Assembly: GCA_947165805.1 (NCBI GenBank)
Contig: CAMVBT010000002.1
Location: forward strand, 1 to 26,286
DNA: 26,286 nt
Direction: 5' to 3'
Source: an uncultured Clostridia bacterium
GTDB lineage: Bacteria; Bacillota; Clostridia; Oscillospirales; Ruminococcaceae
Position 1 is the stretch's first letter; every line of letters begins with the position of its first letter. The notes under the pieces are model-generated. The model made no database searches, was not told the origin of the DNA, and saw nothing but the letters and a program-made list of their open reading frames with translations. The translations under genes were made by a program, and so were the position numbers. This document shows, one piece after another, positions 258 through 16,327 of the stretch.

Positions 258-312
258 ATATACCCGATAAAACAAATCAATTTCAATGACAGATCATTCA
301 GGAGGAATAGGT

Positions 313-624: not shown

Positions 625-1047
625 ATGGCTGAAGAACAGAAAAAGCAGATATTCAGACAAAAGACCCTTGACCGCATCGCTTCTCCCGAGCAGCTCACGG
701 ATTACCTTCATGTGACAAATCCCGGGATATGGGTGGTTTTCGCGGTGATAATACTGCTGCTCGCGGGATTTTTCGCTTGGGCTACCATAGGACAGCTTGA
801 AGTGGTAACGGACGCGAAAGCGTCTGTTACGGACGGCACGGCGCAGATAACCGTTTTAAGCAGCGCACAGGTAAATTCCGGAATGACCGTTCGTGTGGGA
901 AAAGAGGAGTTTACCGTATCAACGGTCGATGAAGATGAGCTCGGACGCACGGTAGCGTATGCGCCCGTTACACTCGCCAACGGCAATTACGACGCAAAGA
1001 TAGTTGTTGAAAGCGTATCGCCGATAAGCTTCCTGCTTACCGCGTGA
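625..1047 (+). CDS. Short HlyD-like NHLM secretion adaptor
   Basis: A 140-residue protein with start ATG 625 behind GGGAGGA (610-616). The N-terminus (IFRQKTLDRIASPEQL, residues 9-24) matches the conserved start of the NHLM bacteriocin-system HlyD family. One membrane segment runs from about residue 34 to 54, followed by a short extracytoplasmic beta-rich tail (55-140). Full HlyD/MFP adaptors usually run 350-450 residues with a long coiled-coil hairpin; here the hairpin and most of the barrel are absent. There is no frame break, so it looks like a naturally minimal adaptor, reasonable in a cell with no outer membrane. It probably partners the two ABC proteins that follow. Its stop overlaps a possible GTG start of the next gene. 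Confidence 0.75.
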   Translation: MAEEQKKQIFRQKTLDRIASPEQLTDYLHVTNPGIWVVFAVIILLLAGFFAWATIGQLEVVTDAKASVTDGTAQITVLSSAQVNSGMTVRVGKEEFTVSTVDEDELGRTVAYAPVTLANGNYDAKIVVESVSPISFLLTA

Positions 1048-1058
1048 CGAGGTGGAAA

Positions 1059-3242: not shown

Positions 3243-3255
3243 GGGGGAGTGTCAA

Positions 3256-5448
3256 ATGGGTTGGTTTGAAAAACAAGTAAAGCAAAGAGAAGATCTTGAC
3301 CAGCAGCTTTTTGAGGACTCCTTCTTCCGTGCCGCGGAGGTCGTTCTCGGCAAGCGCGCGGCATCGGAAATGAGCGATGAACGCATCATCACAAGTCAGG
3401 CGATCGAGGATATCCTTAAATATTACCACTATAAGCCTGTTGAACTTCCGAAGGGTGTCAGGGATCATGAGGAGCAGCTCGATTACAGTCTGCGTCCTCA
3501 CGGCATCATGCGCCGCACGGTCGAGCTTGACGAGGGCTGGTACAGGGATTCCTACGGTCCCCTGCTCGCGTATCTTAAGGAGGACGGGACACCTGTCGCG
3601 CTGCTGCCGAAGAAGATCATAGGTTATTACTATACCGACCGCAAGACCGGCAGGAATGTGACCGTCAATTCCAAAAACGCGGCGCTTTTCGAGCGTGAGG
3701 CATACTGCTTCTACAGACCTCTTCCGCAGAAAAAGCTGGGTATCCCCGATCTTATCGGATATATGAAGAACTGTCTGTCGGGATCCGATATAGTGATAAT
3801 TGTTATCGCGACCTTTGCGGCGACCGTTATCGGAATGCTGATCCCGCGCATCACAAAGGGACTTACGGGTCAGGTGCTCCAGAACGGCGAACAGTCCGCG
3901 CTGATAGGTGTAACTATATGTATCGTCTGCATCGCGATAGCTTCAAATCTGATAAACTCGGTAAAGGGGCTGCTCATGCAGCGCTTACAGACTAAGACAT
4001 CGGTAAGCGTGGAGGCAGCGCTCATGATGCGCATACTGACACTTCCCGCTCCGTTCTTCCGTCAGTACAGCGCCGGTGAGCTTACAAAGCGCTCGCAGTC
4101 GATAAACACACTCTGTTCAGTCATAATGAGCGTGGTATTCTCTACCGGTCTGTCATCTGTTTTCTCTTTGATGTACATTACGCAGATATTCAGCTTCGCA
4201 CCGACACTCGTCGTTCCGTCGCTGTTGGTGATACTGGTCAGCATTGTATTTACTGCTGCTGCTTCGCTTACTCAGACAAAGATATCCAAACGTCACATGG
4301 AGCATGAAGCAAAGCAGTCGGGTATGGCGTATTCGATGATAACGGGCGTGCAGAAGCTCAAGCTCTCGGGTGCCGAGAAGCGTATTTTCGCAAAATGGCT
4401 CAAACTGTATTCCGAGGGTGCCCGGCTCAAATATGCCCCGCCGCTTTTCTTGAAAATAAACACTGTCATAAATCTTGCGATAACCCTCATATCAACGATC
4501 CTGCTGTATTGGCTTGCAGCACAGAGCGGTGTTGACGCATCGAGCTATCTTGCGTTCAACGCGGCTTACGGAAGCCTTATGGGTGCGTTCATGGCGCTTG
4601 CCAATATAGCGCTCCAGTCAGCGAATGTAAAGCCGATACTGGAAATGGCGGAGCCTTTCCTTAAAGCCGAACCCGAGGCTGCCGACAACAAGGAGATAGT
4701 CACAAAAATAACCGGAGCAATAGAACTCAACAACGTCTATTTCCGCTACGGTGAAAATATGCCGTACATAGTAAACGATATGTCGCTTAAGATAAAAGCG
4801 GGCGAGTATATAGCGATCGTCGGCAGAACAGGCTGCGGAAAGTCAACACTCATGCGTCTGCTGCTGGGATTTGAAAAGCCCGAGCGCGGTGCGATATACT
4901 ATGACAACAAGGATATGAAAAGTCTCGATCTGTGCTCGCTGCGCCGTAAGATCGGTGCCGTGACGCAGAACGGCGGTCTGTTCCAGAATGACATATACTC
5001 GAACATCGTTATATCGGCTCCCGAACTTACACTGGACGACGCATGGGAAGCCGCCGAGATAGCGGGTATAGCCGATGACATACGTGCTATGCCTATGGGA
5101 ATGCAGACAATGGTGTCCGAGGGACAGGGCGGTATTTCCGGCGGTCAGAAGCAGAGACTCATGATAGCCCGCGCGGTCGCGCCGAAGCCGAAGCTGCTGA
5201 TGTTCGACGAGGCGACCTCCGCGCTCGACAACAAGACGCAGAAGCAGGTCTCCGCGGCGCTCGACAGAATGGGCTGCACCCGTATAGTCATAGCGCACAG
5301 ATTATCGACAATAAAGAACTGCGACCGTATCCTCGTGCTTGATAAGGGTCAGATCATCGAGGACGGCACTTATGACGAGCTTATTGACAAGGGCGGTTAT
5401 TTCGCGGAGCTTGTCGAAAGACAAAGGCTTGATGTTGCGGCGGGATAA
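3256..5448 (+). CDS. NHLM-type ABC transporter ATP-binding/permease protein (ABC2)
   Basis: A 730-residue ABC half-transporter, start ATG 3256 behind GGGGGAG. It has no C39 peptidase. Instead the first ~165 residues form a soluble domain typical of the second NHLM transporter subunit, ending near RPLPQKKLGI. A transmembrane domain spans about 170-470. The nucleotide-binding domain has Walker A GRTGCGKST (523-531), signature ISGGQ (627-631), Walker B Asp651/Glu652 and switch His681, so ATPase activity is expected. In NHLM systems this subunit is encoded beside the peptidase-containing one, and the two probably form a heterodimer. Gap to the preceding gene is 13 bases. No immunity gene is recognisable beside it. 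Confidence 0.92.
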   Translation: MGWFEKQVKQREDLDQQLFEDSFFRAAEVVLGKRAASEMSDERIITSQAIEDILKYYHYKPVELPKGVRDHEEQLDYSLRPHGIMRRTVELDEGWYRDSYGPLLAYLKEDGTPVALLPKKIIGYYYTDRKTGRNVTVNSKNAALFEREAYCFYRPLPQKKLGIPDLIGYMKNCLSGSDIVIIVIATFAATVIGMLIPRITKGLTGQVLQNGEQSALIGVTICIVCIAIASNLINSVKGLLMQRLQTKTSVSVEAALMMRILTLPAPFFRQYSAGELTKRSQSINTLCSVIMSVVFSTGLSSVFSLMYITQIFSFAPTLVVPSLLVILVSIVFTAAASLTQTKISKRHMEHEAKQSGMAYSMITGVQKLKLSGAEKRIFAKWLKLYSEGARLKYAPPLFLKINTVINLAITLISTILLYWLAAQSGVDASSYLAFNAAYGSLMGAFMALANIALQSANVKPILEMAEPFLKAEPEAADNKEIVTKITGAIELNNVYFRYGENMPYIVNDMSLKIKAGEYIAIVGRTGCGKSTLMRLLLGFEKPERGAIYYDNKDMKSLDLCSLRRKIGAVTQNGGLFQNDIYSNIVISAPELTLDDAWEAAEIAGIADDIRAMPMGMQTMVSEGQGGISGGQKQRLMIARAVAPKPKLLMFDEATSALDNKTQKQVSAALDRMGCTRIVIAHRLSTIKNCDRILVLDKGQIIEDGTYDELIDKGGYFAELVERQRLDVAAG

Positions 5449-5560: not shown

Positions 5561-5758
5561 ATGCCGGATATGGAGACACTGCTTGCGGAGATGTTCGCGT
5601 TTCAGCGGTTTGAGCGGGACGAGAGCATACAGGATCTGATAAACGACACTCTCTCACGATATGATGATGATCTCTTGCTTACATTTGAAGACCTTGCCGA
5701 CGCAGCGGGCGGACTGGAACCGTCTCCGCCGGACATCGAAGGGAGCAGTGACAAATGA
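5561..5758 (+). CDS. Small double-glycine-motif protein (65 aa), candidate exported peptide or sigma partner
   Basis: Start ATG 5561 behind an excellent GGAAGGAGG site. The protein has an acidic helical N-terminal part (AEMFAFQRF, residues 9-17). It ends in LTFEDLADAAGG (40-51) followed by a 14-residue Pro/Asp/Ser tail starting LEPSPP. The segment before Gly50-Gly51 matches the precursor leaders position by position: Leu -12, acidic -9 and -8, Leu -7, Ala -4/-3, Gly -2/-1. The C39 exporter next door could therefore cut it and release the tail as a short peptide, perhaps a signal. Its stop overlaps the sigma factor start (ATGA), so it may equally be a sigma-associated regulator. I do not recognise a named family with certainty. 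Confidence 0.7.
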   Translation: MPDMETLLAEMFAFQRFERDESIQDLINDTLSRYDDDLLLTFEDLADAAGGLEPSPPDIEGSSDK

Positions 5759-6243
5759 GCCCTTCGTTATCACATGAGCAGCTTTACAGAGAGTACAGAG
5801 ACACAGTGCTCTCGTATATATCGGCAAGGGTAGTCCCGATCGAGGATGCGGAGGATCTGTGCGAGGAAGTGTTCGTAAAGCTCTTCCGTCTTATGGAAAG
5901 CTACGACGGGAGCAGAGCGTCGGTATCGACGCTTGTATATAAGCTCTCCCACGACACAGTCATAGATCATTACCGCACGCACCGCAGACCTGCGGCTATC
6001 TCCGGACAGCAGGAGCTTCTTCCCTCGGCGGAAGATGTCATTATGGACAGGGAACGCTTCGCCGACCTTGCAAAGGCTCTGGCAAAGCTCCCGCAGCAGC
6101 AGAGAGATATACTGATACTGCGCTTTTACCGGGGTCTGACGCTGAAAGCCATAGCCGAAAAGACGGGGCTGACATACGATACTGTCGTGAGCAGACAGAA
6201 AATCGCTCTGAAAGCAATGAAGAAAATGCTCGAAAAAGAATGA
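5755..6243 (+). CDS. ECF-like sigma-70 family RNA polymerase sigma factor
   Basis: A 162-residue sigma factor with region 2 at about residues 8-75 (core-binding and -10 recognition, including LCEEVFVKLF and the VIDHYR segment). Region 4 is at about 105-158 (LPQQQRDILILRF, then the helix-turn-helix KAIAEKTGLTYDTVVSRQ). There is no region 1.1 or 3, as usual for the ECF class. It overlaps the 65-aa gene by four bases, which implies coupled translation, and lies 25 bases before the radical SAM gene. It may drive expression of the peptide locus. Whether the STAS/RsbW/SpoIIE set of the same locus controls it is unknown; RsbW-type proteins classically bind sigma-B/sigma-F types rather than ECF types. 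Confidence 0.9.
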   Translation: MSPSLSHEQLYREYRDTVLSYISARVVPIEDAEDLCEEVFVKLFRLMESYDGSRASVSTLVYKLSHDTVIDHYRTHRRPAAISGQQELLPSAEDVIMDRERFADLAKALAKLPQQQRDILILRFYRGLTLKAIAEKTGLTYDTVVSRQKIALKAMKKMLEKE

Positions 6244-6268: not shown

Positions 6269-7732
6269 ATGACGTATGTACTTGACAGACGATACCGGTT
6301 GCGCGGCTGGAAGGATAGGCTCGGAGGAGTATATGATACGAAGAGTAAGAAAGTCAGATTTCTCGACAAGCCGTATTTCCTGCTTCTGATGAAATGCGAC
6401 GGCGCGCATGATATAGATGTGGAGAGCCTGCATGAGTATCAGCAGGGATTTATCAGTGATTTCGAGAGAGACGGCATCATACATAAAGCGGGATTGCTTG
6501 ATTTTCTCAGTCCCGAGCAGGAATATTTCACCTATCCCGCCGAATACAAGGAATCGGTACACTGGTCGATAACAGGAGCTTGCAATCTCAAATGCCGTCA
6601 CTGCTTCATGTCCGCGCCCCACGCGAAGCACGGCACACCCACTCACGAGCAGATAATAAAGATCGCCGACAGTCTTGCGGAATGTGGTATATACAAGGTC
6701 GGACTGACAGGCGGAGAACCCTTGATACGCGATGATTTCCTCGATATCGTATCGGCGCTTTCGGAGCGTGAGATCGACATTACAACGATATACACCAATG
6801 GCTGGCTTTTGGACGAAAAGCTGCTCGACGAGCTTGAAAAGTGCGGTCAGAAGCCCTCGTTCCAGTTAAGCTACGACGGTGTGGGAGTACATGACTTCCT
6901 GCGCGGAGTCGAAGGCGCGGAAGAAAGAACGATAAAGGCGCTGAAGCTCCTTAAAGAACGCGGATACAGCGTTTCCGTGTCGATGTGCGTACACAGGAAG
7001 AATATTGACAAAGTTCGTGAGTCTGTGAACCTGCTCGCCTCTCTCGGTGTAAGGAGCATGAAGCTGGGCTCGATGATGCAGCTCGGCGAATGGGCATCCC
7101 CGGAGGTCGCGGGTTTGCAGCTTTCGTTCCGTGAAAACCTCGAAATGGCGGAAAAGTATATCCCGCAGTATTTTGAGGACGACGCACCCATGGCGATAAT
7201 GATATCCGGTGCTTTTATATACACGCCGGGTGACGATAAGTGGGATATATTCTACAGGCGCGAATGTGGAGCGGAAAAAGAAAAGAAAACCCTCTCCTGC
7301 GGTGTACTGCGTGATAACTTCTATATCGGTGCCGACGGAATGGTCTGCCCGTGCATGGGAATGGCGGACTGCGGCTATTCACCTAATTTCCCGAATATGT
7401 TTAAAACACCGCTTAAAGACATCATCGCACGGGATTCGGACTTTAACAGACTGTGTCACACCACGGTAGCCGAGGTGCGTGACAAGAGCGGAAAATGCCG
7501 TGACTGCAAATATGCGGATCGCTGCGCCGGCGGCTGCCGGAACGGTGCACTGCTGAAAAGCGACAATTACTACGCCCCGAACGAGGAAAACTGCTATTTC
7601 TTTGAAAACGGCTGGGAGGAGCGTCTGACCGCTGCTGCGCAGCCCGCTTTCGAGGAATACATAAAGCGCTGCCCGCCGAAGAAAAAGGATAAGGACAGCG
7701 AAAAGAACGATCCGGTGAGCGATTGCCCGTAA
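6269..7732 (+). CDS. Radical SAM/SPASM peptide-modifying enzyme
   Basis: A 487-residue enzyme, start ATG 6269 behind AAAGGTGA. The first ~85 residues form a separate domain that may act as a peptide-recognition element. The radical SAM core carries the [4Fe-4S] motif CNLKCRHC (Cys105, Cys109, Cys112) and the SAM-binding GGEP (148-151). The SPASM region has Cys344, Cys360, Cys362, Cys368 and then CRDC/DRC/AGGC (Cys410, 413, 419, 423), enough for auxiliary clusters. SPASM enzymes next to RiPP precursors form thioether or carbon-carbon crosslinks, epimers or other changes. Here the precursors start 37 bases downstream and share Cys16/Cys33 and several aromatics. The exact chemistry cannot be read from sequence. 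The last ~20 residues are a charged, probably disordered tail. Confidence 0.92.
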   Translation: MTYVLDRRYRLRGWKDRLGGVYDTKSKKVRFLDKPYFLLLMKCDGAHDIDVESLHEYQQGFISDFERDGIIHKAGLLDFLSPEQEYFTYPAEYKESVHWSITGACNLKCRHCFMSAPHAKHGTPTHEQIIKIADSLAECGIYKVGLTGGEPLIRDDFLDIVSALSEREIDITTIYTNGWLLDEKLLDELEKCGQKPSFQLSYDGVGVHDFLRGVEGAEERTIKALKLLKERGYSVSVSMCVHRKNIDKVRESVNLLASLGVRSMKLGSMMQLGEWASPEVAGLQLSFRENLEMAEKYIPQYFEDDAPMAIMISGAFIYTPGDDKWDIFYRRECGAEKEKKTLSCGVLRDNFYIGADGMVCPCMGMADCGYSPNFPNMFKTPLKDIIARDSDFNRLCHTTVAEVRDKSGKCRDCKYADRCAGGCRNGALLKSDNYYAPNEENCYFFENGWEERLTAAAQPAFEEYIKRCPPKKKDKDSEKNDPVSDCP

Positions 7733-7741
7733 AGGCAATTA

Positions 7742-7761
7742 TATAATAAAAACATAGGAGG
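7742..7761 (+). promoter_or_regulatory. Possible -10 element and strong ribosome site before precursor 1
   Basis: A perfect TATAAT (7742-7747) and the ribosome site AGGAGG (7756-7761) lie in the 37-base gap before the first precursor. No good -35 box is found at 16-18 bases; TTGCCC (7723-7728) is too close to pair with this TATAAT. It may be an extra promoter that boosts precursor synthesis, or simply an AT-rich stretch. Confidence 0.25.
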
Positions 7762-7769
7762 ACTTTACA

Positions 7770-8144
7770 ATGTCAAAAGAAACAGCAAAGAAGCTCATGG
7801 CGGAGCTCGAAACAAACGAGGAACTCAAAGCAAAGGTAAATGGGATCACAGATCCGGAACAGCTTTTAAAGATAGCTGTAGATGCGGGATATGACGTTAC
7901 CGCCGAAGAACTTATCGAGGCTGACAGAGAGCGCAGAGCAGAGCAGGCAAAGAACACGGACGAAAAGCTGTCGCTCGATGACCTCGAAGGTGCCGCCGGC
8001 GGCAGAAGATGGGGAGGCGATGATGCTTCTGACGGTCACGAAATGGGATGCGACATCTGCTATCACCATAAGAGCTGGAGCGAAGAAAACGATGAGTGGT
8101 GCACAAAGAGTTATTATAAGTGCAAGGGCGGTATCTGGGACTGA
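7770..8144 (+). CDS. Nif11-leader RiPP precursor peptide 1
   Basis: A 124-residue precursor. Residues 1-78 are a Nif11-type leader (helical start MSKETAKKLMAEL, then a segment around AGYDVTAEELIEA) ending in LSLDDLEGAAGG, the C39 cleavage site. The predicted core is residues 79-124 (46 aa). In core numbering it has A8, DGHEMGC at 10-16, Cys19, Tyr20, Trp25, Trp32-Cys33, Tyr37-Tyr38 and Cys40, so four Cys in all. It is the shortest core, with Lys at 23, 35, 39 and 41. It is the first of five paralogues and follows the radical SAM gene by 37 bases. The cleavage site follows from the family rule; the modifications are unknown. Confidence 0.93.
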   Translation: MSKETAKKLMAELETNEELKAKVNGITDPEQLLKIAVDAGYDVTAEELIEADRERRAEQAKNTDEKLSLDDLEGAAGGRRWGGDDASDGHEMGCDICYHHKSWSEENDEWCTKSYYKCKGGIWD

Positions 8145-8229
8145 TACTGTTCTTTCCATACAAGATACAGGGCAGCGGAGCGAGTGATGTGCGCTGCTGC
8201 TCTTACGAAAAAGCAATGAGGTGATCAAT

Positions 8230-8625
8230 ATGTCAAAAGAAACCGCAAAGAAGCTCATAGCGGAGCTCGAAACAAACGCAGAACTCAAAGCAAAGGTGAG
8301 CGGCATCACCGACGCCGCACAGCTCGTAAAGATAGCTGTAGACGCGGGATATGACGTTACCGCCGAAGAACTTATCGAGGCTGACAGAGAGCACAGAGCC
8401 GAGCAGGCAAAGAACACGGACGAAAAGCTGTCATTAGACGACCTCGAAGGTGCTGCGGGCGGTAGGACATGGGAAGGCGAAGATGCCTCGGACGGACACG
8501 AAATGGGCTGTACCGCGTGCTATCACGGCAAATCATACAGTGAGGAAAACAATGAATGGTGCCAAAAAATATATTATTATCCGGGCGGCGGATATAACTG
8601 CGGCGTGTCCGAAAGCTATCTGTAA
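8230..8625 (+). CDS. Nif11-leader RiPP precursor peptide 2
   Basis: A 131-residue precursor. A GTG at 8221 is in frame, but ATG 8230 is chosen because GAGGTGAT lies just before it and the product then aligns with its paralogues from the first residue. The leader (1-78) ends in GAAGG. The 53-aa core has DGHEMGC at 10-16, Cys19, Tyr20, Tyr25, Trp32-Cys33 and Tyr37-38-39. A Gly-rich stretch (PGGGY) then leads to Cys46. Core and leader are closest to precursor 1, including the Cys16/Cys19 pair that precursors 3-5 lack. The 85-base gap upstream contains only a weak GC-rich repeat (GCAGCG/CGCTGC). Confidence 0.92.
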   Translation: MSKETAKKLIAELETNAELKAKVSGITDAAQLVKIAVDAGYDVTAEELIEADREHRAEQAKNTDEKLSLDDLEGAAGGRTWEGEDASDGHEMGCTACYHGKSYSEENNEWCQKIYYYPGGGYNCGVSESYL

Positions 8626-8671
8626 AATACAAATATGGAAATGTTTTTTTCTGATAAGTTTTTAAACCGTA

Positions 8672-8708
8672 CCCATGGCTCTTACCGTTTTGCTGTAAAT
8701 GTCATGGG
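8672..8708 (+). promoter_or_regulatory. Imperfect hairpin between precursors 2 and 3
   Basis: CCCATG (8672-8677) pairs with CATGGG (8703-8708), and inside it TTAC (8682-8685) pairs with GTAA (8695-8698). A symmetric 4x4 internal loop separates the stems and the end loop is 9 bases. It sits in the longest gap of the precursor array (125 bases). A T-run lies upstream of the hairpin rather than downstream, so it is not a normal terminator. It could be an mRNA-processing or stability element. Confidence 0.35.
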
Positions 8709-8750
8709 ATAAAGTAAACCGAAAACAAAAACAAACAGGAGGATATTACA

Positions 8751-9173
8751 ATGTCAAAGGAAAACGCAAAGAAGCTCATGGCAGAGCTTGGAACAAACGA
8801 AGAACTCAAAGCAAAGGTAAAAGGTATCACGGACCCGGCGCAGCTTTTAAAGATAGCTGTCGACGCGGGCTATGACGTTACCGTCGAGGAAATGATCGAA
8901 GCCGAGAAGGAAAAGAGAGCGGAGCAGGCAAGGAACACGGACGAAAAGCTGTCTTTAGATGACCTCGAAGCTGCTGCGGGCGGTGTAAGCGGAAACGGTG
9001 AGACAGCTTCCGACGGACACGAAATGGGCTGTGACGTAAGCTATCATTGGAGAGGCTACAGCGAAGAACACAACGAATGGTGCAATAATGAATTTTATAT
9101 TTCTGACAATAAGAGCTGTGGTTCAGGTACAAACGATTCTTGTACGATAGGTTCCGGTAAATTTGACCGATAA
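8751..9173 (+). CDS. Nif11-leader RiPP precursor peptide 3
   Basis: A 140-residue precursor, start ATG 8751 behind AGGAGGAT. The leader (1-78) differs from 1 and 2 in carrying VEEMIEAEKEK in the middle and DDLEAAAGG at its end. The core is the longest of the set (62 aa). It has DGHEMGC at 10-16, Ser19 in place of Cys, Tyr20, Tyr25, His29, Trp32-Cys33, Tyr38, Cys45 and Cys53, with a Ser/Gly/Asn-rich tail. Unlike the other four it lacks Trp at core position 3. Lys occurs only at 43 and 59. The tail length variation suggests that the region after Tyr38 is under little constraint. Confidence 0.92.
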   Translation: MSKENAKKLMAELGTNEELKAKVKGITDPAQLLKIAVDAGYDVTVEEMIEAEKEKRAEQARNTDEKLSLDDLEAAAGGVSGNGETASDGHEMGCDVSYHWRGYSEEHNEWCNNEFYISDNKSCGSGTNDSCTIGSGKFDR

Positions 9174-9219
9174 ACATCAGATATCCGGCATACATCAAAA
9201 TAATAAGGAGAGCATGACC

Positions 9220-9618
9220 ATGTCAAAAGAAACAGCAAAAAAACTCATAGCCGACTTACAGTCGAGCGAGGAACTCAAAGCAAAGGTGAACGGTATCACC
9301 GACCCCGTGGAGCTCTTAAAGATAGCTGTTGAGGCGGGCTATGATGTTACCGCCGAGGAAATGATCGAAGCCGAGAAGGAAAAGAGAGCGGAACAGTCAA
9401 AGAACACCGACGAAAAGCTGTCTCTCGATGATCTCGAAGGTGCTGCGGGCGGTGAGTTGTGGGGAGGCGAGGACGCTCCCGACGGTCATGAAATGGGCTG
9501 CCTTATGAGTTATTACGGTATGGATTATCAGCGGGATAACAATATATGGTGCCGACACGAATATTATTGTACCAATGCAAACTATGAAGGTACCGGGTAT
9601 ATAACCCTGCCCGATTGA
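9220..9618 (+). CDS. Nif11-leader RiPP precursor peptide 4
   Basis: A 132-residue precursor. In-frame ATGs at 9163 and 9214 are rejected. ATG 9220 has AAGGAG (9205-9210) at a good distance and matches the paralogues, while 9163 would overlap precursor 3. The leader begins MSKETAKKLIADLQSS and ends DDLEGAAGG. The 54-aa core has DGHEMGC at 10-16, Ser19, Tyr20, Tyr25, Trp32-Cys33, Tyr37-Tyr38 and Cys39, with only three Cys. This core has no Lys at all. Its Pro9 and the Gln26 region pair it with precursor 5 as a subfamily. Confidence 0.92.
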   Translation: MSKETAKKLIADLQSSEELKAKVNGITDPVELLKIAVEAGYDVTAEEMIEAEKEKRAEQSKNTDEKLSLDDLEGAAGGELWGGEDAPDGHEMGCLMSYYGMDYQRDNNIWCRHEYYCTNANYEGTGYITLPD

Positions 9619-9636
9619 CAGCAGGAGGATAACGAT

Positions 9637-10035
9637 ATGTCAAAAGAAAACGCAAAGAAGCTCATAGCGGAGCTTCAGACAAACGAGGAACTGAAAGCAA
9701 AGATCAAAGGTATCACAGACCCCGCACAGCTCGTTAAGATAGCTGCCGATGCGGGATATGATGTTACCGCCGAGGAACTTATCGAGGCTGACAGAAAACA
9801 AAGAGCCGAACAGGCAGCCAATACCGACGAAAAGCTGTCCATAGACGACCTTGAGGGAGCTGCGGGCGGAGCCGCCTGGAGGAGTGAGGATGCGCCGGAC
9901 GGTCATGAAATGGGCTGCTTCTGGAGCTATCACGGATACTCCTATCAGCAGGAAAACGGTCTGTGGTGCAATCAGGCTCATTATTGCAATTCTTCCTACG
10001 AAAGCAAGCCGGACGATATTCGTGACTGTCATTGA
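9637..10035 (+). CDS. Nif11-leader RiPP precursor peptide 5
   Basis: A 132-residue precursor starting 18 bases after precursor 4, behind GGAGGATA. The leader ends LSIDDLEGAAGG. The 54-aa core has DGHEMGC at 10-16, Ser19, Tyr20, Tyr25, Asn29, Trp32-Cys33, Tyr38, Cys39 and Cys53 next to the C-terminal His. A single core Lys is at 46. Its stop codon lies inside the loop of a perfect inverted repeat (10021-10046), which marks the end of the precursor array and may separate it from the acyl-assembly genes. Confidence 0.93.
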   Translation: MSKENAKKLIAELQTNEELKAKIKGITDPAQLVKIAADAGYDVTAEELIEADRKQRAEQAANTDEKLSIDDLEGAAGGAAWRSEDAPDGHEMGCFWSYHGYSYQQENGLWCNQAHYCNSSYESKPDDIRDCH

Positions 10036-10088
10036 TGACAGTCACGCGGAAGAACAATGATCGTATCACGCGGAGCAAATTTGTTCTT
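10021..10088 (+). terminator. Double hairpin at the end of the precursor array (attenuator or stabiliser)
   Basis: Two consecutive inverted repeats. The first is CGTGACTGTCAT (10021-10032) with ATGACAGTCACG (10035-10046), perfectly complementary and with the precursor-5 stop codon in its apex. The second is AAGAACAA (10050-10057) with TTGTTCTT (10081-10088). The second 3' arm is U-rich but only a short T stretch follows. A partial terminator or an RNase-protecting cap are both possible; either would make precursor mRNA more abundant than the enzyme genes downstream. The octamer CACGCGGA also occurs twice here (10043-10050 and 10067-10074). Confidence 0.5.
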
Positions 10089-10106
10089 TAAGAAAAGGGT
10101 AAACGA

Positions 10107-11009
10107 ATGATAACTGTAAAGCAAGACGATATCGGACTTTACCGTGACTTGTTTTCCGGATACCGGACGCTGTACACCGACAGGTGTGCGGACAGAACGG
10201 CTCGCGCGGGAAGAGCGCTGTACGCTTTTCTTGACGGCGAGCCGGCGGGGTATCTGTTAATATCGGACGAGCACGGCGGCGATTTCATAAGCTATGTATT
10301 TACCGTGCCGGATAAACGCGGCATGGGCGTTATGCAGACGCTTATCCGTTATGCCGCCGATACTGCTGAAAAAATGATCGGCACTGCGTTTTCGGACGCA
10401 CGTGAGTTCGCACCCGCTCTGATGCACGTTATGGAGAAGCTCGGATTTGAGCAGGGCGGGTCAAGGTATATGTTCCGCTGTGACGGCGACGATCTCTGGG
10501 AACGCTGGGACGCTTACATGAACAAGACGGGTAAGCGGCTGTGCGATACGCTCCGTCGGCAGGGATATTCCACAGTGCTTCTCAGTGAAGCGTCGGAGGA
10601 ACTGCTCGAACAGTATCGTCAGACCCCGACAAGCGAATATAAAAACCCCCTCAATCATCAGCATCTGATAATGCCGGGCGCGGAAGTGACGAAAGATGTC
10701 AGCGTATTATGCGTAAGAAACGGCGTTCTGTCTGCGTATGTGTTCGCATATATGCCGGAGCGCAGGAGCGCGATATTCAAAACGCTTTCGTCATCGGCGG
10801 CGCTCCACGGCAGCGGTGTGATACTGCTCCCGATAGCCGAGTCGCTTGCAAGGGTACGTGAGCGCGGGTGTAAGCAGTTCGTGTTCTCAATGGACGGTAT
10901 CGGAGATCACGCAAATTCCTTCCGGGACAAGGTGCTTTCCGTGCTGATTTCAAAGACAAGCAAAAGAATAAGCTATGTCTATTATCCGAAAAGGGAGACA
11001 AACGTATGA
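10107..11009 (+). CDS. GNAT-like acyltransferase of double length
   Basis: A 300-residue protein, start ATG 10107 behind AAAAGGG. The N-terminal half is a recognisable GNAT fold. A strand at FISYVFTV (60-67) leads into the acyl-CoA/phosphopantetheine loop PDKRGMGV (68-75), and LMHVMEKLGF is the typical late GNAT helix. The C-terminal half (about 170-290) looks like a second, degenerate GNAT-like fold without a clear binding loop. The stop overlaps the ACP start by ATGA. GNAT enzymes attach fatty or polyketide acyl groups to peptides in the selidamide and goadvionin RiPP families. With an ACP, ketosynthase pair and ketoreductase immediately downstream, transfer from ACP to peptide is a reasonable inference. 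A simple acetyltransferase acting as immunity factor remains possible. Confidence 0.8.
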   Translation: MITVKQDDIGLYRDLFSGYRTLYTDRCADRTARAGRALYAFLDGEPAGYLLISDEHGGDFISYVFTVPDKRGMGVMQTLIRYAADTAEKMIGTAFSDAREFAPALMHVMEKLGFEQGGSRYMFRCDGDDLWERWDAYMNKTGKRLCDTLRRQGYSTVLLSEASEELLEQYRQTPTSEYKNPLNHQHLIMPGAEVTKDVSVLCVRNGVLSAYVFAYMPERRSAIFKTLSSSAALHGSGVILLPIAESLARVRERGCKQFVFSMDGIGDHANSFRDKVLSVLISKTSKRISYVYYPKRETNV

Positions 11010-11278
11010 ACGAAGAATTTAAAAAGATAATAAGAGAGAGCCTTATCTCTCATCTCGATATAGATGATGATACGCGCGCCGGAATGACCGACGACACTAT
11101 CATCTTCAACACGGGCGATGACCGCCCCAACCTCGGGCTCGATTCGATAGACTCACTTGAACTCGTCACAATGATATTTGAGCTGTTCGGGTATGATGTT
11201 CCTGCCGAGGATGTAAAGAAACTGTACTCCGTGAACGCTATCGCGGCATATCTTAATGAGCATGGTATAACAGAATGA
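11006..11278 (+). CDS. Acyl carrier protein
   Basis: A 90-residue acidic, helical protein with the phosphopantetheine attachment motif GLDSIDSLEL. The modified Ser is residue 47 (LDS), followed by the helix LVTMIFELFG that ACPs use for partner docking. Length and charge are typical of type II fatty-acid or polyketide carrier proteins. It overlaps the acyltransferase upstream and the ketosynthase downstream by ATGA junctions. It is therefore probably a dedicated carrier for this locus rather than the housekeeping ACP. It would need a phosphopantetheinyl transferase encoded elsewhere; none is in the window. Confidence 0.93.
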   Translation: MNEEFKKIIRESLISHLDIDDDTRAGMTDDTIIFNTGDDRPNLGLDSIDSLELVTMIFELFGYDVPAEDVKKLYSVNAIAAYLNEHGITE

Positions 11279-12375
11279 ACAGAGTGGTAATAACCGGAAT
11301 GGGCGCTCTCAGCGGTGAGATAAAGCCCTGTACGGCATTCGATACAACGGGTCTGCTGACGGATAAATTCGGTGAGATCGACGGACTCGACTGCGAAAAC
11401 AGGCTGTTTGATATTATTGGTCGTTCACTTAATGAAATGCTTGCCGATGCGGGACTGACGAGTGCGGACATCTCCGCTTATGGCGCGGATTGCCGTATGT
11501 TCTTCGGGACACTCCTCGCCCGAGATAACACATATCTCGCCCACAGCAGAATCGGTGCGGACACGCTCGCCATGATGAACGAATTTGCGGTATATGCCGC
11601 AGGTCTTGCGGGGGTGCGCGGTACTGTCGATATATCCTCGGCTTCATGCGCTGCGGGAACCACTGCGATAGGAATGGCGTTCGACTTCATAAGAAACGGG
11701 CTGTGCAGATGCGCGGTCGCTGGCGGCGCGGAAGAGCAGACGCAGATAGCGGGCTATGGTTTCAACTGCCTTAAATCACTGTCCCACGATGTCTGCAATC
11801 CGTATGATGTGAACCACGACGGGATAAACATCGGTGAGGGCGGCGCGTTTTTCATGCTTGAAACGCTCGAAAGCGCACAGGCGAGAAAAGCGAAGATATA
11901 CTGTGAGATACTCGGCTTTGCGAGCGGCAATGACGCTTATCACGCTACAAGCCCAGAGCCTACGGGTGAGGAAGCATATCATCTTATGCTGAACGCTCTC
12001 GATGACGCGGGTATTTCCGCTGAACAGATAGACTACATCAATGGTCACGGCACAGGCACGGTGCTCAATGACTCTATGGAAACGAATGCGCTGAAAAAGC
12101 TGTACGACAGTGCGGAACGCAAACCGTTCGTAAGCTCGACCAAGTCGCTTATCGGACATTGTATGGGAGCGTCTGGCGCAATAGAGCTTGCAAGCGTTCT
12201 GCGTTCGATTCAGAGCGGAGAGCCGATAATTATGCCGCGTCTTACGGATCCGCTCGACGACAGCGGAATGTACAATGCTCCTAAAAAGATCGACATAGAC
12301 TACGCGATGTCGAACAGTTTCGGCTTTGCCGGCAACAGCGCAAGCATCGTTATAAGAAGGTGGGGGGACGAATGA
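11275..12375 (+). CDS. Beta-ketoacyl-ACP synthase, catalytic (KS-alpha/FabF-like)
   Basis: A 366-residue thiolase-fold condensing enzyme with the full active site: Cys125 (SSASCAAGTTAIG), His258 (NGHGTGTVLND) and His295 (TKSLIGHCMGASG). The C-terminal NSFGFAGN motif is also present. It is somewhat shorter than FabF (about 410 aa), mainly in the N-terminal half. It should condense malonyl-ACP with an acyl starter. The next gene encodes a ketosynthase-like protein without the nucleophilic Cys, so the pair resembles the KS/chain-length-factor heterodimer of type II polyketide synthases. No malonyl-transferase, dehydratase or enoyl reductase is in the window, so those would come from primary metabolism or not be needed. 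Confidence 0.92.
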   Translation: MNRVVITGMGALSGEIKPCTAFDTTGLLTDKFGEIDGLDCENRLFDIIGRSLNEMLADAGLTSADISAYGADCRMFFGTLLARDNTYLAHSRIGADTLAMMNEFAVYAAGLAGVRGTVDISSASCAAGTTAIGMAFDFIRNGLCRCAVAGGAEEQTQIAGYGFNCLKSLSHDVCNPYDVNHDGINIGEGGAFFMLETLESAQARKAKIYCEILGFASGNDAYHATSPEPTGEEAYHLMLNALDDAGISAEQIDYINGHGTGTVLNDSMETNALKKLYDSAERKPFVSSTKSLIGHCMGASGAIELASVLRSIQSGEPIIMPRLTDPLDDSGMYNAPKKIDIDYAMSNSFGFAGNSASIVIRRWGDE

Positions 12376-13352
12376 CAGCGTATATTGAAAGCGTCGGCAT
12401 CATCTCCCGCTGCGCGCAGTCTGTGGAGACTGTCACGGAACTTCTGAACGGCAGTGAAGCAGCTTTATCACCCATGCCGATAGAATTTGATTCGCAGATA
12501 CCTCCCGCGAAAATGCGCCGGAACAGCAGATACAACAAGCTCGCCTGCACTGCCGCCGACAACGCAGTACGCGGGGCTTTCGTCCCCGAGGATACCGACC
12601 GCCGCAGGATAGGCACGATCATATCCACAGGCTACGGTTCGAGCGTATATTATACACAGTTCGCGGACACGGTCGTGAAGGATGTTCCCGGACTTTGCAG
12701 CCCGTTTGTTTATTCGGGAATGGTGCCGAACGCCTGTGTCGGGCAGATATGTATTCTGAACGGCTTCAAGGGCGTGAGTACGGTGCTTACGGGCGGCGAT
12801 CCGCTTGAATACTCTTCCCTGCTGCTCGGAACAAACAAGGCTGATATGATACTCTGCGGCTCGGTCGAGGAATACAACGAAGCGCTTTATGCCGAGCTCG
12901 GCAGGCTCGAAACGCTGAAATGCAGCGAGCTTTCGGAGGGCGCCGCAATGTTTATGCTGACCCGCGAAAAGACAGATAAAACGCATTGCGCGGTGACGGA
13001 TTTTTCGTCCGCGTCTCTCGGTAAAAGCCCGCTCCTTCACAGACTTGACGATAATTCCGCCGAAATTGTTTTCGGTGTGCTTGACAGATATAATGACACT
13101 CCCGATGCGGTATTCACAGCCGCAAACGGAACATACTTCGATGATATGGAAGATGCCGCAATATATAAAAAATTCCCCGAAGCGGTTCGGCTTGCTCCGA
13201 AGAAATACACGGGTGAAACTCTCGGCTGCGGATATGCGATTAACGCGGCTTTTGCGGCTGCGGCGATAAGCTGCGGCAAATACGATAAAGTGCTTGTTAC
13301 GGGCGTTGATATGGTCGGTAATTACTGCACATCAATGATCGAAAGGGCGTAA
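12372..13352 (+). CDS. Ketosynthase-like protein lacking the catalytic Cys (chain-length-factor-like)
   Basis: A 326-residue protein. A GTG at 12360 is in frame, but ATG 12372 is preferred: it forms the same ATGA overlap seen at other junctions and has GGGGGGAC in front. The fold is ketosynthase-like, but where the active Cys should be it reads VLTGGDPLEYS, with Gly-Asp in place of the nucleophile. The conserved His regions are also degenerate (VFTAANGTYFDD in place of the HGTGT block). It is about 40 residues shorter than the ketosynthase before it. The expected role is the non-catalytic partner that shapes the chain-length pocket. Its divergence from known chain-length factors is large, so the subgroup is uncertain. 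Confidence 0.75.
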   Translation: MTAYIESVGIISRCAQSVETVTELLNGSEAALSPMPIEFDSQIPPAKMRRNSRYNKLACTAADNAVRGAFVPEDTDRRRIGTIISTGYGSSVYYTQFADTVVKDVPGLCSPFVYSGMVPNACVGQICILNGFKGVSTVLTGGDPLEYSSLLLGTNKADMILCGSVEEYNEALYAELGRLETLKCSELSEGAAMFMLTREKTDKTHCAVTDFSSASLGKSPLLHRLDDNSAEIVFGVLDRYNDTPDAVFTAANGTYFDDMEDAAIYKKFPEAVRLAPKKYTGETLGCGYAINAAFAAAAISCGKYDKVLVTGVDMVGNYCTSMIERA

Positions 13353-13355
13353 ACT

Positions 13356-14075
13356 ATGGGAATACTTGAAGGTAAAAAAGTGCTTGTCACAGGCATTTCC
13401 GGCGGTATCGGTCTTGCCTGCGGCAAGCTGTTCATTGCCGAGGGTGCGGAAGTCCTCGGTTCATACCGCACGATGAAGCCGGAGCTCGAAGCTCTCGGTG
13501 CGAAGCTGTTCGCCCTTGATACCGATGACCGTGAGAACATCGAAAAGACAGTCAAAGCAGAGATACGGTCTTTCGGCGGCATTGATGCTCTTGTCAACTG
13601 TATCGGCATTACTGCGCCGGAGCCGCTGTTCGCTGCAGCCCCCGTTAAATGGGAAAACGTGATAGAAACTAACTTGTTCTCTGCAATGAGGATAATGCAG
13701 GGTGCGATAGTTCCGCTCGTGTCAAAAAAGGGCGGTGCGATAGTTAATATAAGCTCGGTGTTCAGTATCAGAGGCGGTGTCGGACAGTCAGGCTATTGTG
13801 CGTCTAAAGGGGCGCTTGACGCAATGACGAGAGCTGCCGCGACAGAGCTTGCGGGCAAAAATATCCGTGTGAATACGGTCGCTCCCGGATTTATCGAAAC
13901 GGAAATGACAGCGGGATTTGATGAGAAGTTCCGCACGGAAAGCCTTGCAAAGATACCGATGAAGCGCTTCGGAAAGCCGGAGGAGGTCGCGGAGCTGTGC
14001 GCGTTCCTCATAAGTGATAAGGCAAAGTACATTACCGGGCAGTCATTTGTTATCGACGGAGGGCTGTCGGTTTGA
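13356..14075 (+). CDS. 3-oxoacyl-ACP reductase (FabG-like SDR)
   Basis: A 239-residue short-chain dehydrogenase/reductase starting three bases after the preceding stop. It has the NAD(P)-binding TGISGGIG (residues 12-19), the structural motif NCIG, and the catalytic residues Ser134, Tyr147 and Lys151 (YCASK). The APGFIETEM segment and C-terminal YITGQSFVIDGG are typical of FabG. In this operon it should reduce the beta-ketoacyl-ACP made by the ketosynthase pair to a beta-hydroxyacyl-ACP. With no dehydratase alongside, a hydroxyacyl product is one plausible end point. A general FabG role cannot be excluded, but position argues for a dedicated one. Confidence 0.93.
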   Translation: MGILEGKKVLVTGISGGIGLACGKLFIAEGAEVLGSYRTMKPELEALGAKLFALDTDDRENIEKTVKAEIRSFGGIDALVNCIGITAPEPLFAAAPVKWENVIETNLFSAMRIMQGAIVPLVSKKGGAIVNISSVFSIRGGVGQSGYCASKGALDAMTRAAATELAGKNIRVNTVAPGFIETEMTAGFDEKFRTESLAKIPMKRFGKPEEVAELCAFLISDKAKYITGQSFVIDGGLSV

Positions 14076-14102
14076 ATAAATTCCATGAAAGGTGATATAC
14101 AA

Positions 14103-15920
14103 ATGCCAAGAAAAAGAAATCGGAAGCTGCTGGTACAGATAGGCATCATTACCCTGCTCATTTTTGTCGCCACGCTTGCTTATTCAATGATCACGGATTA
14201 CTCGATAACGGAGAAGTCTTTCCTTTCATCGAAAAATGAGATGATAGATCGCGATCTTATCAATATGAGCAGCTCGGAAGCTATGACGGGAATGACAAGC
14301 TGGTTCTGGGATTATACAAAAGAGCACGGTGATGATATAACAAGAGCTTTGACCGAAGAAGAGATCGCCCGATTGGAAAGCGAGGAGATCCAAAGCGCCT
14401 TGAACGCATACAGTTACGGAGAGCGAAATGATTTTGCGGAGTGTGATCCGGAACTGCAGATGTTCAATGCCAGAAATATATTTCAAGTCATGGTGCTGCT
14501 CAGAGATATGGAAATAAAACAGCTCAAATACGCGAGCATTGATTGTATATCGTTCACGAATGAGCATGAGGCGTTTCTGTATCTGAGAAATACAGCGGAT
14601 GAGCCCGACGTGTTATCGGAAGAATCATTTTCAGACCCATATAACACATTTGCATACAGCGAAGCGTTCAAGACAATAAGTTATGAAGCGTCGCAGCATA
14701 GTGCCGTAAGGCAGATACTCGCAGGAGAACTCAATGAAGCGGGAAAGACGCTGTATGAGGTATATTCCGATCCGACAGACGGCAAGGTTTATTATATAGG
14801 ATATACGCCTGTTGTTTTCGACGGGGTAATAGGCTGTTATCAGTGTATTCGTTATGACTTTACCGAGTTCAGACGCGATCTTCTGAATCATGCCATGAAC
14901 TCGATGATAATAGGCTTTCTGGTGCTTGTCGTCCTGAATACACTTCTGATGCTGTTTATATTCGTAAACGCTATAAAGCCCCTTTCCAAAGTAAAGACCG
15001 GTGTCGAAGAATATATGAATGACAAGAACAGCGAAGCGGTCGTGGAAAAAATGAGCCGCATCGCAACACGTAACGAGATCGGTGCGGTTGCTGACAGATT
15101 CGCTGATCTTGCGCAGGAAATAGACAGATATACAAACGAGAATATGCGTCTTGTCGCGGAGAAGGAGCACGTTGCCGCAGAGCTCTCGCTTGCCACGAAC
15201 ATACAGACAAGTATGCTGCCTAATATTTTCCCGGCGTTCCCCGAACGTAAGGAATTTGAACTGTATGCGTCTATGGATCCCGCAAAGGAGGTAGGCGGCG
15301 ACTTCTATGACTTCTTCCTGGTAGATGACGATCATCTCGGAATGGTGATTGCCGATGTTTCCGGAAAAGGTGTGCCGGCAGCGCTGTTCATGATGGCGGC
15401 GAAGATACTGATAAACGACCACGCACTTATGGGCGGCACACCCGCGGAGATACTCGCAAGAGTAAACAAGCAGGTCTGCGCCAACAACGACGCGCATATG
15501 TTTGTTACCGTGTGGCTCGGAATACTGGAGATAAGTACGGGCAAGCTCACAGCCTCCAACGCAGGACACGAATATCCTATGCTGAACAGTAACGGCAGAT
15601 ATGAGATGCTCAAGGATAAGCACGGTATGCCTATCGGAGCTTTCAAAAAATCAAAATACACGAACTATGAGATCACGTTGAACAAAGGCGACTGCATATT
15701 TGTATATACCGACGGCGTTGCGGAGGCTACCGACGCGAACGATGAGCTGTTCGGCACGGAACGCACGGTCGAAGTGCTTAATGCAGCACCCGATGCTTCA
15801 CCGGAGAATATACTCAGAAATGTCCGCGCCGCTGTGGACGCATTTGTCAAGGAAGCACCGCAGTTCGACGATCTGACGATGCTGGCATTCAGATATCTTG
15901 GAACGGAGGAAAACCAATGA
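14103..15920 (+). CDS. Membrane-bound SpoIIE/RsbU-type PP2C phosphatase with extracellular sensor
   Basis: A 605-residue protein. ATG 14103 is chosen over 14085 because AAAGGTGA (14088-14095) is its ribosome site. Transmembrane helix 1 covers about residues 8-28, an extracytoplasmic sensor-like region 30-260, and helix 2 about 266-290. A HAMP-like linker follows (KPLSKVKTGVEEYM onward), then the PP2C/SpoIIE domain from about 370. Metal-binding acidic residues are present: Asp400 (GGDFYDFF), Asp418 (ADVSGKG), Asp537 (YTDGVAEA) and Asp589-Asp590 (FDDLTML). It should dephosphorylate a STAS antagonist in response to an external cue. The adjacent kinase and the upstream STAS genes are natural partners. 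The cue could be the peptide product itself, but that is speculation. Confidence 0.92.
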   Translation: MPRKRNRKLLVQIGIITLLIFVATLAYSMITDYSITEKSFLSSKNEMIDRDLINMSSSEAMTGMTSWFWDYTKEHGDDITRALTEEEIARLESEEIQSALNAYSYGERNDFAECDPELQMFNARNIFQVMVLLRDMEIKQLKYASIDCISFTNEHEAFLYLRNTADEPDVLSEESFSDPYNTFAYSEAFKTISYEASQHSAVRQILAGELNEAGKTLYEVYSDPTDGKVYYIGYTPVVFDGVIGCYQCIRYDFTEFRRDLLNHAMNSMIIGFLVLVVLNTLLMLFIFVNAIKPLSKVKTGVEEYMNDKNSEAVVEKMSRIATRNEIGAVADRFADLAQEIDRYTNENMRLVAEKEHVAAELSLATNIQTSMLPNIFPAFPERKEFELYASMDPAKEVGGDFYDFFLVDDDHLGMVIADVSGKGVPAALFMMAAKILINDHALMGGTPAEILARVNKQVCANNDAHMFVTVWLGILEISTGKLTASNAGHEYPMLNSNGRYEMLKDKHGMPIGAFKKSKYTNYEITLNKGDCIFVYTDGVAEATDANDELFGTERTVEVLNAAPDASPENILRNVRAAVDAFVKEAPQFDDLTMLAFRYLGTEENQ

Positions 15921-16327
15921 AAGAACTTGTTTTGGAAGCACTGAACACCAATCTCCCGAAGGTGCTTGATTTTGTGGATGAGCAGCTTGAAGCCGCGAAC
16001 TGCAATATAAGAGTCAAGACTCAGATAGATGTTGCTGTGGAGGAGCTGTTCGTAAATATCGCAAATTACGCCTACAATCCCGAAATAGGAACTGCGGTGG
16101 TTCAGGTATCGGTAACGGACGATCCGCTTTCGGTAGAGATAACCTTTATCGACAACGGAGAGCGTTATGACCCGCTTGCGAAGCCCGATCCCGACACCTC
16201 GCCGGCAGCGCTCAAAAGGAAAAAGGGCGGTCTCGGCATCTTTATGGTAAAGAAGAGCATGGACGATGTGATCTATGATTATAAGGACGGACGGAATATA
16301 CTCACTATCAAAAAGACTCTGAACTGA
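15917..16327 (+). CDS. RsbW/SpoIIAB-like anti-sigma ATPase (serine kinase)
   Basis: A 136-residue GHKL-family ATPase, overlapping the phosphatase gene by ATGA. The N box is EELFVNIANYAY with Glu43, Asn47 and Asn50; G1 is DNGERYDP (Asp79, Gly81); G2 is GGLGIFMVK (104-112). The size equals that of RsbW-type proteins, with no extra domains. Family role: bind a sigma factor or other target when not bound by the STAS antagonist, and phosphorylate the antagonist. With the STAS proteins at 3-609 and the SpoIIE-type phosphatase it completes a partner-switching module that brackets the peptide genes. Its true target, the sigma factor at 5755 or another, is unproven. Confidence 0.9.
   Translation: MKELVLEALNTNLPKVLDFVDEQLEAANCNIRVKTQIDVAVEELFVNIANYAYNPEIGTAVVQVSVTDDPLSVEITFIDNGERYDPLAKPDPDTSPAALKRKKGGLGIFMVKKSMDDVIYDYKDGRNILTIKKTLN

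Follow-up and report, generated by a model that had tools for sequence, protein, structure and literature searches.

A candidate ribosomal lipopeptide cluster combining a type II ketosynthase/chain-length-factor cassette, a predicted tandem GNAT protein and Nif11 precursors in an uncultured Clostridia bacterium

The DNA analysed here (26,286 nucleotides of contig CAMVBT010000002.1 from an uncultured Clostridia bacterium of the Ruminococcaceae, hereafter the window) carries at 6269-14075 genes for a radical S-adenosylmethionine (SAM) enzyme, five Nif11-type precursor peptides, a GNAT protein, an acyl carrier protein (ACP), a ketosynthase (KS), a chain-length-factor (CLF)-like ketosynthase and a FabG-like ketoreductase (KR). 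The reading that we favour, with moderate confidence, is that the cluster makes an exported ribosomal lipopeptide whose acyl chain comes from the KS/CLF pair and is transferred by a tandem GNAT protein. In such a pathway an acyl chain would grow on the ACP through the action of the KS/CLF pair and FabG, the tandem GNAT would hand it over to a side chain in Nif11 precursors modified by the radical SAM enzyme, and the C39 domain of the exporter protein ABC1 would cut after the Gly-Gly motif during export. We have high confidence that the acyl cassette functions together with the precursors; that the GNAT protein passes the acyl group from the cluster's own ACP to the peptide is fairly probable. 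The support comes from ATGA linkage of the genes, recurrence of the set within one clade, the placement of the GNAT gene, the tandem GNAT model, a lysine at core position 1 (Lys1) in a sister group of precursors (type B) and the NHLM-type exporter.

All of the genes named in the initial annotation are present, on the + strand and where it had placed them (Table 1; families were assigned with Pfam and NCBIfam, and 30 open reading frames (ORFs) of the window were scanned with Pfam). They had been described as mostly ATGA-linked. As read from the sequence this is true of GNAT/ACP, ACP/KS and KS/CLF, each of which overlaps by ATGA, whereas the radical SAM gene and the precursors are separate cistrons, each with its own upstream purine-rich stretch. 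FabG follows the CLF gene (which probably starts at 12372 instead of 12360) after 3 nt and the SpoIIE gene follows FabG after 9 nt, while the SpoIIE and HATPase genes again share ATGA. One co-directional block runs on the + strand from the STAS gene through the RsbW-like kinase gene, so that the unit extends past 6269-14075 to an exporter (625-5448), an ECF sigma factor (5755-6243) and partner-switching regulators (286-609 and 14085-16327). The leaders of all five precursors score above the TIGR03798 cut-off and are followed by a Gly-Gly site and a variable core; for the radical SAM gene no NCBIfam model reached its cut-off among the best 25 of 74 matches.

A scan of the species-genome collection with a CLF profile built from 32 sequences yielded 30 loci, the gene maps of which come from six-frame calling with hidden Markov models built from these loci and not from curated annotation. 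The IQ-TREE phylogeny also has 30 rows, with the window added and L037 left out because it comes from the same species as the window (99.7% identical DNA over 9,485 bp); L067 and L068 repeat the contig of L053. A RiPP-linked clade (RiPP, ribosomally synthesized and post-translationally modified peptide) holds 24 rows including the window, with support of 95/89 and members from Clostridia, Selenomonadales/Veillonellaceae and Synergistales, and the remaining six rows, L064-L066 (Paenibacillus) and L060-L062 (Roseburia, Enterococcus), are outgroups. The 24 rows cannot all be counted as independent, since L043 and L044 represent one and the same DNA (99.98% over 11.4 kb) and L047 and L048 are near copies (98.7% over 2,167 bp). 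Related gene sets recur in 29 loci from other species, and we therefore reject the idea that the genes are chance neighbours.

The co-occurrence check proposed in the initial annotation was run on this clade. A GNAT gene lies in the locus in 17 of the 24 rows (the window, L038, L039, L041, L044-L049, L051-L054, L056, L058 and L059) and strong precursor matches, defined as 60 bits or more, in 16 (the window, L038, L040, L044, L045, L047, L049-L054, L056, L058, L059 and L063), while the six outgroup loci have neither GNAT nor Nif11 precursor; acyl genes commonly occurring without precursors, which would have spoken against the proposal, are not the pattern of the RiPP-linked clade. Most of the gaps are cut contigs or have the missing parts elsewhere in the genome. 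The contigs of the GNAT-less loci L043, L050 and L063 start within the cassette, and L042, with no GNAT and no precursor, is a degenerate copy in the genome bin of L041. Precursors are missing from the locus in L039, L041, L042, L046, L048, L055 and L057, of which L041 and L048 are contig-cut and L039 has Nif11 matches elsewhere in its bin; L043 has weak matches only (22-38 bits), perhaps belonging to a neighbouring second cluster, and counting it would give 17/24. FabG is found in 20/24 (missing in L039, L040, L042 and L054), radical SAM genes in 14/24 and an ABC exporter (400 bits or more) in 13/24; the L052 locus, for example, contains the GNAT gene (in two frames), precursor, cassette and exporter but not a radical SAM gene, which bears on the initial proposal that acylation follows radical SAM modification. 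The exporter is the least specific mark, as the ABC model, which does not separate ABC1 from ABC2, also passes 400 bits in three of the six outgroup loci (L064-L066). In outgroup L060 a BtrH_N/DUF4872 protein (by Pfam) stands in place of the GNAT, with homologues in L061 and L062 (by clustering); BtrH is an ACP-to-amine acyltransferase. A DUF7005 protein (PF22541, assigned by Pfam on L058) occurs in five loci (L051, L054, L056, L058 and L059).

The acyl genes amount to a minimal type II polyketide synthase (PKS) set, with a catalytically intact KS (Cys125, His258, Lys290 and His295 are invariant in 19/19 sequences), a partner without the catalytic Cys and His that is predicted from modelling to adopt the KS fold, and an ACP. 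This partner had been called Cys-less, which is correct for its active site although other conserved cysteines (C109, C122 and C127) are kept. Its profile finds 9S5H as the best-scoring solved match, and it forms a family of its own, with at least 114 members (P0022-P0135, the window's included) among the best 120 of 210 matches; within these 120 the family matches run to 1.6e-40 and, after a gap, FabF-like matches begin at 3.7e-7. Matches beyond the FabF level (E < 1e-80) were found in two of 396 genomes of the bacterial family, one of them the window's own. A remnant of primary fatty acid synthesis was rejected because the CLF is its own family and house-keeping FabF-type genes are separate. 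P0029, a 537-aa protein spanning 98% of the CLF query and also carrying SDR/FabG Pfam domains, is a probable CLF-FabG fusion.

A dehydratase gene (called as PF07977-type from L058) lies directly before the CLF gene in ten of the 30 tree rows (L055, L056, L058-L062 and L064-L066), and the 20 dehydratase-free rows make up one clade (100/99) inside the RiPP-linked clade. From this distribution and the tree, a polyene-type ancestor with a single dehydratase loss toward the window's group is the simplest reading, with details of the tree unsure on account of long branches (L058, L054). A KS/CLF/ACP/KR set without dehydratase would leave a beta-hydroxyacyl chain after one round or need the house-keeping FabZ. 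The initial proposal that the GNAT protein places a dedicated chain on the cores gains from the recurrence with precursors and from the NpuN precedent given below, but its beta-hydroxyacyl chain is a guess, since the locus lacks a dehydratase and yet house-keeping FabZ could serve. L058 carries its own carboxyltransferase (PF01039), which fits malonyl supply.

The GNAT protein, whose PF00583 match clears the cut-off, had been annotated simply as GNAT-like. It is predicted to consist of two GNAT domains in tandem instead of one, on the basis of an AlphaFold2 (AF2) model (pLDDT 88.8) for which most of the top full-length matches in the PDB are tandem GNATs. NpuN, likewise a tandem GNAT, acylates Lys1 of a Nif11 peptide (passages of PMC13060382). 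The likeness of the window protein to NpuN is drawn from the common architecture. The gene travels with the peptide side, adjoining the precursors away from the ACP gene in L058 and sitting between precursors in L049.

GNATs can also serve as immunity proteins, and it is conceivable, though we think it improbable, that this one is a self-protection or acetylating enzyme and that the KS/CLF cassette makes a separate, co-exported lipid. Its best solved matches, which are CoA-dependent acetyltransferases, and the missing conserved Lys of the window cores would suit such a role, but GNAT and KS/CLF co-occur over distant loci and are translationally coupled in the window. Moreover, a sample of 397 further genomes of the phylum gave no member of the GNAT family (E <= 1e-8), so that it is not a general resistance gene. 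GNAT-like domains load or decarboxylate starters in some PKS loading modules, and a slightly less probable alternative is that the GNAT starts the chain by loading or decarboxylating a starter unit on the ACP, the chain being released elsewhere. The overlap of the GNAT and ACP genes is in keeping with this, as is the Pfam scan of window ORFs, in which neither a KSIII-type nor any other acyltransferase domain turned up; it is at odds with the six outgroup loci of like KS/CLF/KR type that have no such GNAT, with the Lys1 signature of the sister precursors and with the position of the GNAT gene beside precursors in L058 and L049 and beside a radical SAM gene on another contig in genome bin G397.

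Eight genome bins were searched for both GNAT and Nif11; four (G396-G399) have both and four (G400-G403) have neither. In G397 one contig (L116) holds the radical SAM and GNAT genes, which flank a Nif11 remnant, and another contig (L040) carries four precursors with ACP-KS-CLF and an exporter. In G399 a locus with the order radical SAM-GNAT-ACP-KS-CLF-FabG-exporter (L046) is apart from an array of 23 tandem Nif11 precursors of two core subtypes (L089:1828-12242). Judged by the gene layout of these bins, the GNAT would act in trans on many precursors. More tentatively, and falling somewhat short of an even chance, we suggest that combinatorial lipo-RiPPs are widespread, with one acyl chain, made by a dedicated KS/CLF synthase taken over from a polyene-type ancestor that had retained its dehydratase, being attached by one tandem GNAT acting in trans on libraries of radical-SAM-modified Nif11 peptides, 23 members strong in one genome.

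The precursors of the window's group (type A) gave 74 matches, from which 72 cores were obtained, 71 of them distinct and 23 from one array. The cores share Asp-Gly-His/Lys-Glu, Cys34 (71/71), Trp-Cys59 (Cys in 69/70) and Cys68 (53/70), the first two of these cysteines being the conserved feature relevant to sactipeptides and ranthipeptides. Among the 71 cores, His in the DGHE motif pairs with a following (Y/F)(H/Y) in 43/44, and the non-His variant pairs with NL, DL, EL, NY or NI in 21/27, a strong covariation for which we have no explanation. Different Nif11-like precursors with Trp-rich short cores lie near a short ECF sigma match in L006 (151-405 and 1047-1385). A conserved core Lys as acceptor was sought in the window's group and there is none. 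The N-terminus is judged an unlikely acceptor because C39 exporters couple leader removal to export.

The sister precursors (type B, L050-L063) have short cores, eight residues long in one L058 peptide when counted from Gly-Gly. Lys is the first core residue in 18/24 and one of the first three in 22/24. Lys is in neither place in 18 distinct Nif11-like peptides from six genomes without this GNAT, used as a control (Fisher p 5e-7 for position 1 and 5e-10 for the first three, on rows that are not independent). From this count were dropped two of 26 distinct type-B matches, NSRTQ-type peptides that come from the type-A loci L047 and L089 and were entered with that type, as well as a masked L063 peptide lacking Gly-Gly; repeated identical control peptides in L102, L105 and L108 were entered once. 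A search with the type-B leader over the class gave matches in 6/391 genomes, with distant leaders. The type-B Lys1 mirrors Lys1 of NpuA, whereas the window's type-A group does not. Another explanation, to which we give as low a probability as to the loading of a starter unit, is that only some of the precursors are acylated, or that the residue acylated is made by the radical SAM step, so that the acceptor is invisible in the sequence. Two core subtypes within one 23-member array are compatible with this, and in phaeornamide ornithine acceptors are made from Arg (passages of PMC9505594), but the Pfam scan of window ORFs brought up no arginase domain.

Against the proposed acylation by the GNAT stand a number of observations. 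The five window cores begin with R, R, V, E and A, none having Lys1; type-A cores as a group have Lys1 in 5/71 and no conserved Lys column, and although some Lys is present in 68/71, three have none, window precursor 4 included. The leaders in the Lys1 control are but distantly related, and its rows depend on one another. As to the enzyme, solved GNATs match it weakly in sequence (best E 4.6e-6), and since NpuN used acyl-CoA in vitro an ACP donor is not implied by that precedent. Neither the window nor any of the 19 rows that share its CLF subclade yielded a dehydratase, contig ends cutting several of these rows. Some loci of the clade are incomplete: the L039 locus holds GNAT-ACP-KS-CLF but neither precursors nor radical SAM nor FabG; the L040 locus combines precursors with ACP-KS-CLF and lacks GNAT and FabG (its bin has a GNAT on a different contig); in L055, with cassette and exporter, GNAT and precursor were not found in the locus; and L057 is without this GNAT family, having two other GNAT candidates (one with PF00583 at 19.8 bits, cut-off 20.7, the other without Pfam match) and an NHLP-like precursor candidate. 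As the bins are metagenome-assembled, contigs within one bin could stem from different organisms. Finally, radical SAM, Nif11 and ABC exporter genes occur without adjoining acyl genes in L118, L119, L121, L122, L091 and L093. The peptides of the first four are not of the DGHE type, and their genomes have no close GNAT, with weak, generic matches in two of the four only. L091 (7201-16000) and L093 (500-11000) are sister radical SAM, Nif11 and NHLM-like loci with GHE-GC cores and zinc-ribbon-like tails; they were rejected as a clean control without acyl genes and show only that the genes are not adjacent, as bins G396 and G397 carry the GNAT elsewhere.

Lipidated RiPPs as such are established (lipolanthines, goadvionins and selidamides; passages of PMC9505594 and PMC13060382). 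The window resembles the nostolysamides and other selidamides (NpuA-NpuN; PhaN) in its GNAT, tandem in NpuN, and in the Nif11 or NHLP leader, and resembles phaeornamide in ABC transporter export and Gly-Gly cleavage. It thus has the selidamide-type gene set of GNAT, Nif11 or NHLP precursor and ABC exporter, and its cores lack the Lys at position 1 that is a feature of NpuA and not of the selidamide class. Known selidamides take their acyl groups from primary metabolism, as does phaeornamide (passages of PMC9505594), or from the expression host, and use lanthionine synthetases, whereas in the window the KS, CLF, ACP and KR genes form a dedicated set that is accompanied by a radical SAM gene. 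Ketosynthase, acyl carrier and radical SAM enzyme all go unmentioned in the main text of the nostolysamide preprint; the network supplements may include such GNATs. In goadvionins and lipolanthines a dedicated polyketide chain is joined to the RiPP by a GNAT-type acyltransferase (passages of PMC13060382; also PMC9505594). They differ from the window in that they are class III lanthipeptides acylated at the N-terminus. They use modular PKS, and no modular type I PKS lies next to the precursors among the 30 window ORFs scanned with Pfam. Lipoavitides, reportedly described by Ren et al. in 2024 (Nat Chem), are said to be lipidated RiPPs that have an acyltransferase and their own non-modular pathway of fatty-acid type, features which the window would share; their acylation is reportedly N-terminal, with a KSIII-started short chain and a class III lanthipeptide-type core, and that pathway is not known to have a KS/CLF pair.

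On the polyketide side, the highly reducing type II PKS of ishigamide (6kxd) and the window are alike in having KS, CLF, ACP and KR. The former has a dehydratase, whereas the window does not and is tied to a ribosomal peptide. The KS profile matches 6kxd_A at 238 bits, which is not its best match (FabF-type entries reach 329), and the CLF profile matches 6kxd_B at 27.9 bits. In cispentacin formation a KS and a motif-less partner, AmcF and AmcG, carry out a single C2 elongation, a precedent for such a pair (passages of PMC10698177). The window KS reaches 190.8 bits against the AmcF model NF058662 and the CLF-like protein 17.5 bits against the AmcG model, both below cut-off; AmcG is shorter (157 model positions), and the window showed no adenylating enzyme of the AmcH type. 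Among the literature matches listed, a set outside which subscription papers and supplements lie, none reports Nif11 RiPPs together with a type II KS/CLF cassette. The earlier remark that the combination had not been described is borne out within that literature, but a dedicated acyl chain on a RiPP is already known. Since goadvionins, lipolanthines and lipoavitides have dedicated acyl synthesis, what is likely to be new is limited to the combination of a type II KS/CLF acyl source, a tandem GNAT and radical-SAM-linked Nif11 precursors.

Of the NHLM/NHLP export proteins, ABC1 (with C39 domain) and ABC2 both score above cut-off, and cleavage after Gly-Gly is predicted to be carried out by the C39 domain during export. 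The HlyD adaptor falls below its cut-off (20.5 against 156.2 bits) and is a 140-aa N-terminal-like form; short HlyD-like forms (137-148 aa) are also seen in L040, L045, L046 and L052, and longer adaptors (303-329 aa) in L051, L053, L054, L055 and L057. Expression is probably set by the ECF sigma factor and the flanking SpoIIE/HATPase/STAS genes, which we take to be a partner-switching switch on the RiPP cluster. SpoIIE, RsbW-like kinase and STAS types are all found in L046, L054 and L093, and SpoIIE with HATPase in L037 and L038. The 65-aa protein upstream of the sigma gene has a Gly-Gly site and a PPPD/EGS-type tail, with a homologue of similar tail in L090, and might act as a sigma regulator or be exported as a sixth peptide. 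Further downstream lie a 5'-nucleotidase-like gene split over two frames (16335-18040), identically split in L037, and three consecutive genes of the serine-recombinase family at the end of the contig (22759-26284), possibly a mobile element.

Table 1. Features of the cluster and its flanks in the window
Feature	Position	Strand	Evidence
Second STAS gene, cut	3-257		
STAS anti-anti-sigma protein	286..609	+	PF01740 51.3 bits; TIGR00377
Short HlyD-like adaptor, 140 aa	625..1047	+	TIGR03794 20.5 bits (cut-off 156.2), first 77/421 positions
NHLM exporter ABC1, C39 double-glycine peptidase	1044..3242	+	TIGR03796 927 bits (cut-off 853.3); PF03412
NHLM exporter ABC2	3256..5448	+	TIGR03797 732.8 bits (cut-off 709.4)
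65-aa Gly-Gly protein, overlapping sigma gene	5561..5758	+	no family matched
ECF sigma factor	5755..6243	+	TIGR02937 97.4 bits
Radical SAM/SPASM maturase	6269..7732	+	PF04055 88 bits; PF13186 28.5 bits
Nif11 precursor 1	7770..8144	+	PF07862 51.2 bits
Nif11 precursor 2	8230..8625	+	PF07862 42.9 bits
Nif11 precursor 3	8751..9173	+	PF07862 48.7 bits
Nif11 precursor 4, core without lysine	9220..9618	+	TIGR03798 41.6 bits
Nif11 precursor 5	9637..10035	+	PF07862 54.6 bits
Tandem GNAT, predicted acyltransferase	10107..11009	+	PF00583 36.3 bits (cut-off 20.7); AF2 model
Acyl carrier protein, DS motif at Ser47	11006..11278	+	PF00550 29.2 bits
Ketosynthase (Cys125, His258, Lys290, His295)	11275..12375	+	PF00109 and PF02801 (PF02801 112.5 bits)
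Chain-length-factor-like ketosynthase without catalytic Cys/His	12372..13352	+	PF00109 25.3 bits (cut-off 20.8)
FabG-like ketoreductase (SDR, short-chain dehydrogenase/reductase)	13356..14075	+	PF13561 207.8 bits; TIGR01830 222.9 bits (under cut-off 297.75)
SpoIIE/RsbU-type phosphatase	14085..15920	+	PF07228 169 bits
RsbW-like anti-sigma kinase (HATPase)	15917..16327	+	PF13581 78.8 bits

If the proposed lipopeptide pathway is true, type II polyketide synthesis and ribosomal peptide maturation would come together in uncultured bacteria, many of which are recorded as rumen-derived, and the lipid would be made to order, not drawn from membranes. A GNAT that naturally encounters many variants of its precursor would then also lend itself to the making of lipopeptide libraries.

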